Assembly (NCBI RefSeq): GCF_009688945.1
Contig: NZ_AP021874.1
Coordinates: forward strand, 4,960,001-5,024,000
Source of the DNA: Desulfosarcina alkanivorans
GTDB taxonomy: Bacteria > Desulfobacterota > Desulfobacteria > Desulfobacterales > Desulfosarcinaceae
Reading direction: 5' to 3'
DNA: 64,000 nt
Shown here: piece by piece, positions 42,681-45,281 of the stretch
Layout: every line of letters begins with the position of its first letter
Position numbering within the stretch: the stretch's first letter is position 1
Position numbers and translations under genes: made by a program
The notes under the pieces: model-generated
Databases searched by the model: none
The model's input: only the letters and a program-made list of their open reading frames with translations
What the model was told of the DNA's origin: nothing

Positions 42681-43865
42681 ATGAGAGATGCATATATCGT
42701 AACGTCCGTCAGGACCCCCGGCTGCCGCAGAGGCAAAGGGGCCCTGAAAGATACCCGGCCGGAAGACCTGCTCTCCTTCATCATGAAGGCCGCCGTCGAA
42801 AAAACCGGAAAGATAGAACCCAAAGACTTTGACGATGTCATGATCGGCTGCTCTTTCCCCGAGGCGGAACAGGGGTTGAACATCGGTCGACTGGCCACCC
42901 AGATCGCCGGTTTCCCGGTCACCGTGTCCGGTGCGACGGTCAACCGGTTCTGCTCCTCGGGACTGGAAGCCATCGCCCTGTCATCATTGCGGGTCATGGC
43001 CGGCTGGTCCGAAATGACCATGGGGGGCGGCGTCGAATCCATGACCTATGTGCCCATGGGCGGCAACCTGCCCCGCCCTCATCCCGAACATTCACGGGCC
43101 CACGCCGACCTGTACGCGTCCATGGGCATCACGGCCGAAAATGTGGCCAACCGGTACAATATAACCCGTGAAGACCAGGATGCCTTTGCCTACGAATCTC
43201 AGATGAAGGCCGTCAAGGCCCAGAAAGAAGGGCTGTATACCGAGATCGTGCCCACACCGGCCGCCAAGTATGTACTTCAGGACAACGGCACCTACAAGAA
43301 GGAAACCTTTCTCCAGGATTTCGATGACGGCGTCCGGGCCACGACGACCAAAGAGGGGCTGGCCAAGCTGCGTGCCGTGTTTGCCGTCAACGGGTCGGTC
43401 ACCGCCGGCAACTCCTCCCAGACGACTGACGGCGCAGCCGCAACCATCATTGCCAGCGAAGAAGCGGTCAAAAAATATGGACTGAAACCCATTGCCAAGC
43501 TGAAGATGTACACCACTGTAGGCTGTGAGCCGGACGAAATGGGAGTGGGGCCCCGCTATGCCATTCCCAAACTGCTGGACCTGGCCGGAATGAAACCCAG
43601 CGATATCGGCTTGTGGGAAATCAACGAAGCCTTTGCCTCCCAGGCCCTGTACTGTATCCGGGAACTGGGCCTCGTTGACAGCATGGACAAAATCAACATC
43701 AACGGCGGCGCCATCGCCCTGGGACATCCCCTGGGCTGCACCGGCGCCAAACTTTGCGCCACCCTGCTGGCCAACATGCAGCGCAAAGGCGTGAAATACG
43801 GTGTCGAATCCATGTGCATCGGCGGCGGCATGGGGGCCGCAGCCCTGTTCGAACTGTGCGACTAA
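42681..43865 (+). CDS. fadA: Acetyl-CoA acyltransferase (3-ketoacyl-CoA thiolase, FadA)
   Basis: Thiolase of 394 residues completing the beta-oxidation spiral. Catalytic Cys91 lies in NRFCSSGLEAIALSSLRVMAG (in part); the His is in GGAIALGHPLGCTGAK and the second Cys in CIGGGMGAA. The start at 42681 follows a strong AAAGGAGG, 37 bases after fadN; a codon at 42654 is less likely. A terminator follows 40 bases after the stop, which ends the operon. Confidence 0.94.
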   Translation: MRDAYIVTSVRTPGCRRGKGALKDTRPEDLLSFIMKAAVEKTGKIEPKDFDDVMIGCSFPEAEQGLNIGRLATQIAGFPVTVSGATVNRFCSSGLEAIALSSLRVMAGWSEMTMGGGVESMTYVPMGGNLPRPHPEHSRAHADLYASMGITAENVANRYNITREDQDAFAYESQMKAVKAQKEGLYTEIVPTPAAKYVLQDNGTYKKETFLQDFDDGVRATTTKEGLAKLRAVFAVNGSVTAGNSSQTTDGAAATIIASEEAVKKYGLKPIAKLKMYTTVGCEPDEMGVGPRYAIPKLLDLAGMKPSDIGLWEINEAFASQALYCIRELGLVDSMDKININGGAIALGHPLGCTGAKLCATLLANMQRKGVKYGVESMCIGGGMGAAALFELCD

Positions 43866-43903
43866 GCCTTCGGTGAGATCGGCAGGTTGACCGACACCAA
43901 TTT

Positions 43904-43932
43904 AAAAGGCCGCCAATCCTGGCGGCCTTTTT
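43904..43932 (+). terminator. Intrinsic terminator of the fadNA operon
   Basis: AAAAGGCCGCC, loop AATCCT, GGCGGCCTTTTT: a strong GC hairpin followed by a T-run, about 40 bases after the fadA stop. Confidence 0.85.
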
Positions 43933-43940
43933 CTTAGGGT

Positions 43941-43969
43941 TTGCATCTTTTGGGGCCCTATGCTAAAGG
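43941..43969 (+). promoter_or_regulatory. Weak candidate promoter for the DAHP synthase leader
   Basis: TTGCAT, 17-base spacer, TAAAGG. The match is poor, but the position is right: transcription would start about 25 bases before the leader-peptide ATG. Confidence 0.35.
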
Positions 43970-44001
43970 TTCAGGTATCCAATGAAAAGGTAACCGCAGC
44001 C

Positions 44002-44082
44002 ATGCACAAAACGGCAGTCACCCGCGCAACTTATTTCGGCTTTTATTTTTATTATAGCCGAGGTGCGCCTGTGGTCTGCTGA
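44002..44082 (+). CDS. Phe/Tyr-rich leader peptide of the aroG-type attenuator
   Basis: A 26-codon frame, ATG to TGA, too short for normal gene calling. Residues 11-18 are YFGFYFYY: seven of eight are Tyr or Phe (four Tyr, three Phe). Such runs in front of aromatic biosynthesis genes are the hallmark of amino-acid attenuators. Its stop lies 24 bases before the terminator hairpin. AAGG about 11 bases upstream is a plausible ribosome site. The downstream gene makes the first committed step to Phe, Tyr and Trp, so ribosome stalling at these codons would report Tyr/Phe-tRNA charging. Confidence 0.8.
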   Translation: MHKTAVTRATYFGFYFYYSRGAPVVC

Positions 44083-44119
44083 CCCCCGATAGCAAGGATT
44101 AAGCAAGAAGCCGCAGGCG
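44066..44119 (+). promoter_or_regulatory. Predicted antiterminator of the attenuator
   Basis: CGCCTGTGG (44066-44074, within the last codons of the leader) can pair over nine bases (one G-U) with CCGCAGGCG (44111-44119), the 5' arm of the terminator. CCGCAG at 43994-43999 can in turn pair with CTGTGG (44069-44074). These are the 1:2, 2:3 and 3:4 alternatives of a classical attenuator. Confidence 0.65.
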
Positions 44120-44145
44120 AAACCGCCTGCGGCTTCTTTGTTTTC
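44105..44145 (+). terminator. Attenuator terminator upstream of DAHP synthase
   Basis: A perfect 13-bp stem, GAAGCCGCAGGCG with CGCCTGCGGCTTC and a four-base loop, extended by A-T pairs and followed by TTTGTTTTC. It lies 45 bases before the DAHP synthase ATG, so it ends transcription before the gene unless the antiterminator forms. Confidence 0.8.
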
Positions 44146-44189
44146 GGATGACAGTAAAAAACAATTTTTTACCGGAAAGGAGAACCAGC

Positions 44190-45281
44190 ATGGAAAAGAC
44201 GTATGATATTCGCGTGGAAAAGTTCGATCCTCTCATTTCACCAGACCGGTTGAAAGAACAGCTTCCATTGAATGACATGGCTCACCGGACGGTCGTGGAG
44301 GGGCGTCGGGCCATCTCCAATATCCTGGAGGGAAGGGACTCCCGGCTGCTGGTGATCGCCGGCCCCTGCTCCATCCATGACGAACGGGCGGCCCTGGATT
44401 ATGCCCGCCGGCTCAAAGCGCTGAGTGAAACCGTTGCCGATACCATGCTGCTGGTGATGCGGGTGTACTTTGAAAAGCCGCGCACCAATGTGGGCTGGAA
44501 AGGATTGATCAACGATCCCTGGCTGAACGGCAGTTATGACATCAATGCCGGGCTTCAGCGGGCACGAAGCCTGTTGCTTAAGATCACGGAAATGGGGCTG
44601 CCCACCGCCACCGAGATGCTCGACCCCATCGTCCCCCAGTACATTGCCGGACTGGTCTGCTGGGCGGCTATCGGTGCACGCACCACCGAATCCCAGACCC
44701 ACCGGGAGATGGCCAGCGGCCTTTCCATGCCCGTGGGGTTCAAGAACTGCACCGACGGGGATCTGTCCACGGCCATCAACGCCATGATCGCCGCTGCCTC
44801 GCCCCAGCATTTCCTGGGCATCGATCCGCAAGGCCAGACCTGCATCGTCACCACCACCGGAAACCCGCACGCCCACATCGTGCTGCGCGGCGGATCCAGG
44901 CCCAACTACGATACCGTCAGCATCAACGAAGCGCGGGCATTGCTCGAGGCCAGGGAACTCAACAGGGCGATCCTGGTGGACTGCTCCCACGACAATTCGA
45001 GGAAGAATCACAGCCTTCAGGGAGCGGTGTGGCAGGATGTGATCAACCAGCGCATCGACGGTAACGGGAGCATCATCGGAATGATGCTGGAAAGCAACCT
45101 GAAGGCGGGAAATCAGAAGAACACGGGTGATCTGGAAACCATGGAATACGGGGTCTCCATTACCGATGCGTGCGTCGACTGGGAGGCTACCGAGCGGCTG
45201 ATCGTTTCCGCTCACGAGCAGCTGGGCAGTCTCGGCGAATCCGGTTTGAACGATGGGTCACGCCGGTACAGGGTAGGGTAA
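44190..45281 (+). CDS. aroG: 3-deoxy-7-phosphoheptulonate (DAHP) synthase, class I alpha
   Basis: First enzyme of the shikimate pathway, joining phosphoenolpyruvate and erythrose-4-phosphate; 363 residues, the AroF/G/H type. Core motifs are VIAGPCSIHD, MRVYFEKPRTNVGWKGLINDP, PTATEMLDPI, ESQTHREMASGL, PVGFKNCTDGDL, VLRGGSRPNYD and ILVDCSHDNSRK. The catalytic-metal Cys in AGPCS and the later His and Glu are all present. The ATG at 44190 follows AAAGGAG. The Phe/Tyr leader suggests a Tyr/Phe-responsive isoenzyme, though allosteric type cannot be read from sequence. Confidence 0.93.
   Translation: MEKTYDIRVEKFDPLISPDRLKEQLPLNDMAHRTVVEGRRAISNILEGRDSRLLVIAGPCSIHDERAALDYARRLKALSETVADTMLLVMRVYFEKPRTNVGWKGLINDPWLNGSYDINAGLQRARSLLLKITEMGLPTATEMLDPIVPQYIAGLVCWAAIGARTTESQTHREMASGLSMPVGFKNCTDGDLSTAINAMIAAASPQHFLGIDPQGQTCIVTTTGNPHAHIVLRGGSRPNYDTVSINEARALLEARELNRAILVDCSHDNSRKNHSLQGAVWQDVINQRIDGNGSIIGMMLESNLKAGNQKNTGDLETMEYGVSITDACVDWEATERLIVSAHEQLGSLGESGLNDGSRRYRVG

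Follow-up and report, generated by a model that had tools for sequence, protein, structure and literature searches.

A putative phenylalanine/tyrosine attenuator before the DAHP synthase gene of Desulfosarcina alkanivorans and related aromatic leaders across its phylum

In the enteric bacterium Escherichia coli, the pheL leader reads phenylalanine. The element described here, which precedes the DAHP synthase gene aroF of Desulfosarcina alkanivorans, has in common with E. coli pheL-pheA (RF01859) a Phe-rich leader peptide, an alternative antiterminator and terminator, and the pathway served; the pheA gene of D. alkanivorans has such an element too. Unlike E. coli pheL, the D. alkanivorans family would read Phe and Tyr, plus Trp in 25 of 54 relatives, and the Rfam Phe_leader model (RF01859) scores only 18.1 bits at the aroF site, below its cut-off of 55. 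Desulfovibrio vulgaris belongs to the same phylum as D. alkanivorans. A putative attenuator in front of its aroA'>aroB'>pheA>aroF>tyrA genes comes from the Merino database, as cited in Table 7 of PMC1173090. This prediction concerns the gene that opens the alternative aromatic pathway, and our covariance model R1 (below) also places the present family there; it is listed as a predicted attenuator only, the text of PMC1173090 names no leader peptide, and the gene concerned is of a type other than AroF.

Attenuation of a DAHP synthase gene has itself been described. In Corynebacterium glutamicum, aroR-aroF is reported to be attenuated via a Phe-Tyr-Phe leader (Neshat et al. 2014, as set out in PMC11802643; also PMC4046766). 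The element proposed here would likewise be a ribosome-mediated attenuator with Phe and Tyr codons before a DAHP synthase gene, but C. glutamicum is an actinobacterium and aroR has three regulatory codons against seven here; the two are likened by arrangement, not by sequence homology. In Acholeplasma, the uORFC-13-1 motif before aroF has a short ORF with at least one Phe codon and a terminator, and attenuation was proposed (PMC8632094, which also recounts an earlier hypothesis that E. coli aroF is attenuated). A short Phe-codon ORF and a terminator before a DAHP synthase gene are common to both elements, whose structures differ. An initial sequence-only reading of our locus had known of no described Phe/Tyr attenuator for this gene in this group. 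That statement stands in the open-access literature searched, where the database prediction in PMC1173090 is the one exception to a lack of described aromatic attenuators in this phylum; the attenuator is nevertheless not a first for the gene, because C. glutamicum aroR-aroF has the same arrangement. Thus the mechanism is textbook, and it is the phylum-wide family that appears to be undescribed, within the same literature.

We examined the locus in a window of 64,000 nucleotides (contig NZ_AP021874.1, positions 4,960,001 to 5,024,000 of the forward strand), from a genome of 7.32 Mb in a single contig. Judged from its sequence and from modelled RNA folds, the region before aroF very probably acts as a ribosome-mediated transcription attenuator, through which the availability of charged tRNA-Phe and tRNA-Tyr governs aroF expression. 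Its features, in window coordinates, are given below; the terminator-like hairpin of the upstream gene, both ribosome binding sites and the limits of the leader ORF (ATG 44002-44004, TGA 44080-44082) were read directly from the letters.

43904..43932, + strand: terminator-like hairpin and T run of the upstream thiolase gene, which ends at 43865
43938..43972, + strand: putative and tentative promoter for the leader RNA, TTTGCATCTTT...CCCTATGCTAAAGG, with a similar sequence in L083, a relative of the same genus
43985..43990, + strand: AAAAGG, candidate ribosome binding site of the leader, also in L083
44002..44082, + strand: leader ORF of 26 aa, MHKTAVTRATYFGFYFYYSRGAPVVC, stop TGA, kept in 57 of 62 same-order AroF genomes
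44012..44028, + strand: segment 1, pairing with 44064-44081 (stem 1:2, anti-antiterminator), from the pair map and covariation
44032..44055, + strand: regulatory codons YFGFYFYY, leader residues 11-18, a conserved aromatic run biased to TTT and TAT
44066..44074, + strand: segment 2, 5' arm of the antiterminator, CGCCTGTGG, within the last leader codons, from 2:3 covariation
44107..44144, + strand: segments 3 and 4, a 13-bp intrinsic terminator with T tract, from sequence, fold and terminator scan
44111..44119, + strand: segment 3 proper, CCGCAGGCG, from the pair map
44174..44182, + strand: GGAAAGGAG, ribosome binding site of aroF
44190..45281, + strand: aroF, class-I DAHP synthase (3-deoxy-7-phosphoheptulonate synthase), 363 aa, from TIGR00034

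The sequence-only reading had described a 26-codon leader with YFGFYFYY at residues 11-18 and a TGA stop, and a perfect 13-bp terminator with a T-run 45 bases ahead of the DAHP synthase gene's start ATG. Both descriptions proved exact on checking, and the identity of the gene was confirmed by a score of 474 bits against TIGR00034 aroFGH (cut-off 173). The terminator reads GAAGCCGCAGGCG-AAAC-CGCCTGCGGCTTC at 44107-44136, with 13 perfect pairs when checked base by base, followed by TTTGTTTT to 44144, and 45 nt separate the end of its T tract from the aroF ATG at 44190. The complementarity claimed between a leader segment and the 5' arm of the terminator is also present: CGCCTGTGG (44066-44074) and CCGCAGGCG (44111-44119) form 9 bp including one G-U, the antiterminator 2:3. 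A further stem that was absent from the initial reading, 1:2, pairs 44012-44041 with 44056-44081 and encloses most of the leader ORF. The fold of the leader stretch has a stability z-score of -6.1, with none of 200 shuffles equally stable, and the terminator at 44107-44144 was the sole terminator-like site reported by a scan of 43860-44260. The arrangement of leader and terminator is far beyond chance. In many relatives (L086, L089, L090, L093, L100 and L103 among others), a second G+C-rich terminator-like hairpin lies after the attenuator terminator and before aroF; this hairpin is absent in the window.

The leader is widely kept in the order. AroF was sought in 194 same-order genomes and had a substantial match in 62, 57 of which carry the leader and terminator element at aroF. 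A typical relative has an ORF ~25 codons long that contains a dense Phe/Tyr(/Trp) run and mostly ends in GLPGVR-stop or a variant, and then a G+C-rich hairpin and T run typically 14-30 nt after the ORF; nearly all relatives having the leader have the intrinsic terminator. The leader of the nearest relative, L083, whose enzyme is 87% identical, reads MCKEAVTSATYFGFYFYFSRGAPVVC. Among the five exceptions (G141, G103, G173, G110 and G024), G173 has just a 54% paralogue of AroF, and the aroF genes of G110 and G024 lie directly behind apparent aroB and aroC. AroF copies lacking a leader of their own include several inside an operon, for instance behind aroB, where further second copies also lie (these gene names were assigned by eye). 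Named enzyme relatives that have the leader are recorded as Deltaproteobacteria and Desulfobacteraceae. No comparable conserved leader was found at AroF homologues in gammaproteobacteria, cyanobacteria and others; two AroF-homologue loci of Chloroflexi/Dehalococcoidia have possible leaders.

The alternative stems are kept together with the leader. In relatives, stem 1:2 joins a GGCAGA-like sequence before the aromatic run to a TCTGCC-like sequence after it, and in many it also joins the start-codon region to the Arg-stop codons; stem 2:3 joins the downstream arm of 1:2 to the 5' arm of the terminator. When the arms of different species were exchanged in a duplex test, native pairs were more stable than cross pairs for both 1:2 (-23.7 vs -18.3 kcal/mol, z -12.6) and 2:3 (-23.4 vs -20.9 kcal/mol, z -6.4), and in neither case was any of 5000 permutations as good. 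The non-partner control 1:3 gave z -0.5, while controls against pre-gene sequence gave z -0.2 for segment 1, -1.4 for segment 2 and -3.3 for segment 3; because this last non-partner control reached z -3.3, part of the 2:3 signal may come from shared composition. Column counts in a structure-blind alignment of 34 sequences agreed in direction: 84% of cells were paired for 1:2 (sliding gave at most 45%) and its double changes numbered 11 vs 3.1 in shuffles, and 94% for 2:3 (at most 50% when slid) with 8 double changes vs 2.4, although these covariation figures are not strict probabilities, because the species are related. RNAalifold on a MAFFT alignment returned the terminator only, since mutually exclusive stems cannot share one consensus, and counts on the named structures were used in its place. 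The comparison with relatives, in which the aromatic leader and terminator recur at the frequency given above and both alternative stems covary, thus supports the initial proposal of a Phe/Tyr attenuator.

The codons of the run carry a signal of their own. In 54 leaders there are 244 Tyr, 143 Phe and 25 Trp regulatory codons, and relatives freely exchange F, Y and W for one another in the run. TAT makes up 79% of Tyr codons and TTT 85% of Phe codons in the leaders, vs 42% and 49% within the aroF coding sequences (Fisher P 3e-17 and 2e-11, codons counted as independent), a preference that would be expected for an unstructured run. Within the D. alkanivorans genome the codons match the gene: Phe and Tyr at aroF and pheA, Trp at a second DAHP synthase gene (RWFWWW), and Tyr only at an accessory tyrS. 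We also considered that Trp-less leaders might be confined to genomes with a separate Trp-leader DAHP synthase, and found no clear relation; in G010, G112 and G168, for example, the AroF leader contains Trp codons and the second enzyme has a Trp leader too.

The locus has the parts of trp-, phe- and his-type attenuators, namely a codon-rich leader ORF, an intrinsic terminator, pairings 2:3 and 1:2, and a stall geometry that fits an attenuator, with only the last regulatory codon borderline. We infer a transcript that starts before the leader, a leader that is translated and a response to amino acids, as follows. A ribosome translating the 26-codon leader would trail RNA polymerase. With Phe- or Tyr-tRNA in short supply, it would stall in codons 11-18, disrupting or masking segment 1 and leaving segment 2 free; segment 2 (44066-44074) would then pair with segment 3 (44111-44119) once that was transcribed, pre-empting the terminator, and aroF would be transcribed. 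If both tRNAs were charged, the ribosome would reach the TGA (44080) and cover segment 2, so that 3:4 would form and transcription would stop before aroF. With an untranslated leader, stem 1:2 should hold segment 2, again giving termination.

Folds in which the ribosome footprint was masked, its edges taken from an assumed standard footprint, are in keeping with most of these steps. With segment 2 free and the transcript ending after segment 3, the antiterminator had a probability of 0.98-1.00; with the ribosome at the TGA, it could not form. The same roles for a stalled ribosome, which frees segment 2, and for one at the stop, which covers it, had been put forward in the sequence-only reading, and they agree with both the coordinates and these folds. 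Once segment 4 was made, the terminator was favoured over the antiterminator at equilibrium in every state, so the switch must be decided kinetically, as happens in known attenuators. What should follow without translation is less clear, because RNA that stops at segment 3, folded with an untranslated leader, prefers 2:3 to 1:2.

The same hairpin could do no more than terminate transcription or mark where a small RNA ends, with aroF read from its own promoter after the terminator and the leader ORF fortuitous. In favour of such an account, a promoter scan within the window found no consensus promoter ahead of the leader. The region at 43938-43972 is tentative because it has no consensus sigma-70 match; TTGACA-type sites do occur upstream of the leader in several relatives. 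The scan found no consensus promoter between the terminator and aroF either, however, and the upstream gene has its own predicted terminator (43904-43932), which separates the aroF leader from transcription upstream. Moreover, a simple terminator leaves unexplained the order-wide leader frame, the aromatic run and the covarying stems 1:2 and 2:3, and we regard this explanation as very improbable.

An arrest peptide of the TnaC kind would use the same leader differently: within the ribosome tunnel, the conserved C-terminus of the nascent peptide, GLPGVR-stop in most relatives, would bind a free amino acid and arrest release. The C-terminal residues are indeed conserved in both AroF and pheA leaders, but they differ where the pairing is kept (GAPVVC here, and LPKVR, LPVLF and GPPRVR), and the free interchange of F, Y and W in the run is what codon sensing would lead one to expect. 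Since the C-terminal codons form segment 2 and pair with segment 1, RNA pairing explains the conservation of the peptide, and an arrest peptide has very little to recommend it. Terminator and antiterminator geometry alone would fit equally a T-box, a riboswitch or a protein-dependent antiterminator that a short ORF overlaps by chance. Yet no Rfam family, T-box (RF00230) and riboswitches included, matched at gathering score within the window, permissive Rfam matches at the site were far below their cut-offs, and conservation falls on an ORF with codons specific to the pathway rather than on an aptamer; we give this explanation almost no credence.

The covariance model R1, built from relatives and this site, gave only two strong matches in the 7.3-Mb genome, at 88 and 93 bits: the aroF site and a site before the chorismate mutase-prephenate dehydratase gene (pheA), whose leader is MTRFTTGRYFYFYCFFSKGLPGAR. 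The next best match, at 24 bits, is the reverse strand of the aroF-leader terminator. G189, a relative of the same genus, has the pheA site as well (97 bits). In D. alkanivorans, aroF and pheA lie apart, each with its own attenuator; in G043, and apparently in G010, G117 and G168, pheA lies closely behind leader and aroF on the same strand, where one attenuator may serve both genes.

Over 395 genomes of the phylum, the R1 matches listed at E ~1e-4 or better came from 123 genomes; in negative controls, 29 genomes mostly of other phyla, the best match had 29 bits (E 0.006). A tally of 241 of the 395 at E<=0.1 was rejected as inflated, because control genomes reach E 0.006, mostly with terminator-only matches. 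The genes behind ~90 further R1 sites include AroF, Bacillus-type DAHP synthase, ADH synthase (archaeal-type, TIGR01949), 3-dehydroquinate synthase II and shikimate kinase, together with a branched-chain-type ABC solute-binding protein, an aminotransferase, an ADP-forming acyl-CoA ligase and MBL-fold proteins. ADH-synthase sites fall in genomes without AroF in the same-order examples that could be checked (such as G003, G020, G023, G045 and G053). In D. alkanivorans, a Trp-rich leader (MDLTMIGKRWFWWWRTTVGCACRIPVA) and terminator precede the second, Bacillus-type DAHP synthase gene (L153, G000:C1 ~872300-872600, + strand), which is not in a trp operon, and Trp leaders also precede many relatives of this enzyme. 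Tyr-rich leaders with terminators precede accessory tyrS genes (L159, G000:C1:6987511-6987662, + strand, LTHGVTQKRYYCGYCLYPLPRGAPHPT; L324 in G173, VTHPNSCFYYYRYANYPTARGVPDLV). A tyrS leader does not hold as an order-wide feature: a check of 30 tyrS loci in the order showed it solely at the D. alkanivorans accessory copy, and the same-genus G173 copy has it too.

We think it likely that one homologous family, with mixed Phe/Tyr and often Trp codons and a leader largely inside its own 1:2 hairpin, runs much of aromatic amino acid synthesis across the phylum. It would act before three first-step enzymes (AroF, Bacillus-type DAHP synthase and archaeal-type ADH synthase), DHQ synthase II, shikimate kinase, pheA and a predicted transporter, with its codons tuned to the gene. 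That the same element precedes different pathway-starting enzymes suggests that regulation tracks the pathway step, not the enzyme family. Regulation of aromatic amino acid synthesis in this phylum is seemingly little recorded, and the attenuator family could become an Rfam family and serve annotation. Leader codons state which amino acids are sensed and therefore give a direct functional label for the downstream gene, as with the Tyr-rich leader at accessory tyrS or a Phe-rich leader, from which a phenylalanine transporter is predicted.

Leaders rich in Phe, with almost no Tyr or Trp, were seen before the branched-chain-type ABC solute-binding protein (L177, L183, L224, L226, L256, L259, L266, L270, L276 and L280), which is therefore predicted to belong to a phenylalanine (or aryl acid) uptake system. 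Aromatic leaders also stand before an ADP-forming acyl-CoA synthetase (L188, L191), which might take part in making aromatic amino acids from arylacetates. At L233 (G277:C21) and L253 (G205:C66), two serial aromatic attenuators precede an ORF of 56-62 aa ending ...MEIEYAMARPS or ...MELEYALARPV; this ORF had no NCBIfam match and looks like a precursor peptide gene. At L282 (G493:C14), a leader-like ORF with the run LIKVLVLVVVVL lies before an acetolactate synthase-like gene and is a probable branched-chain attenuator.
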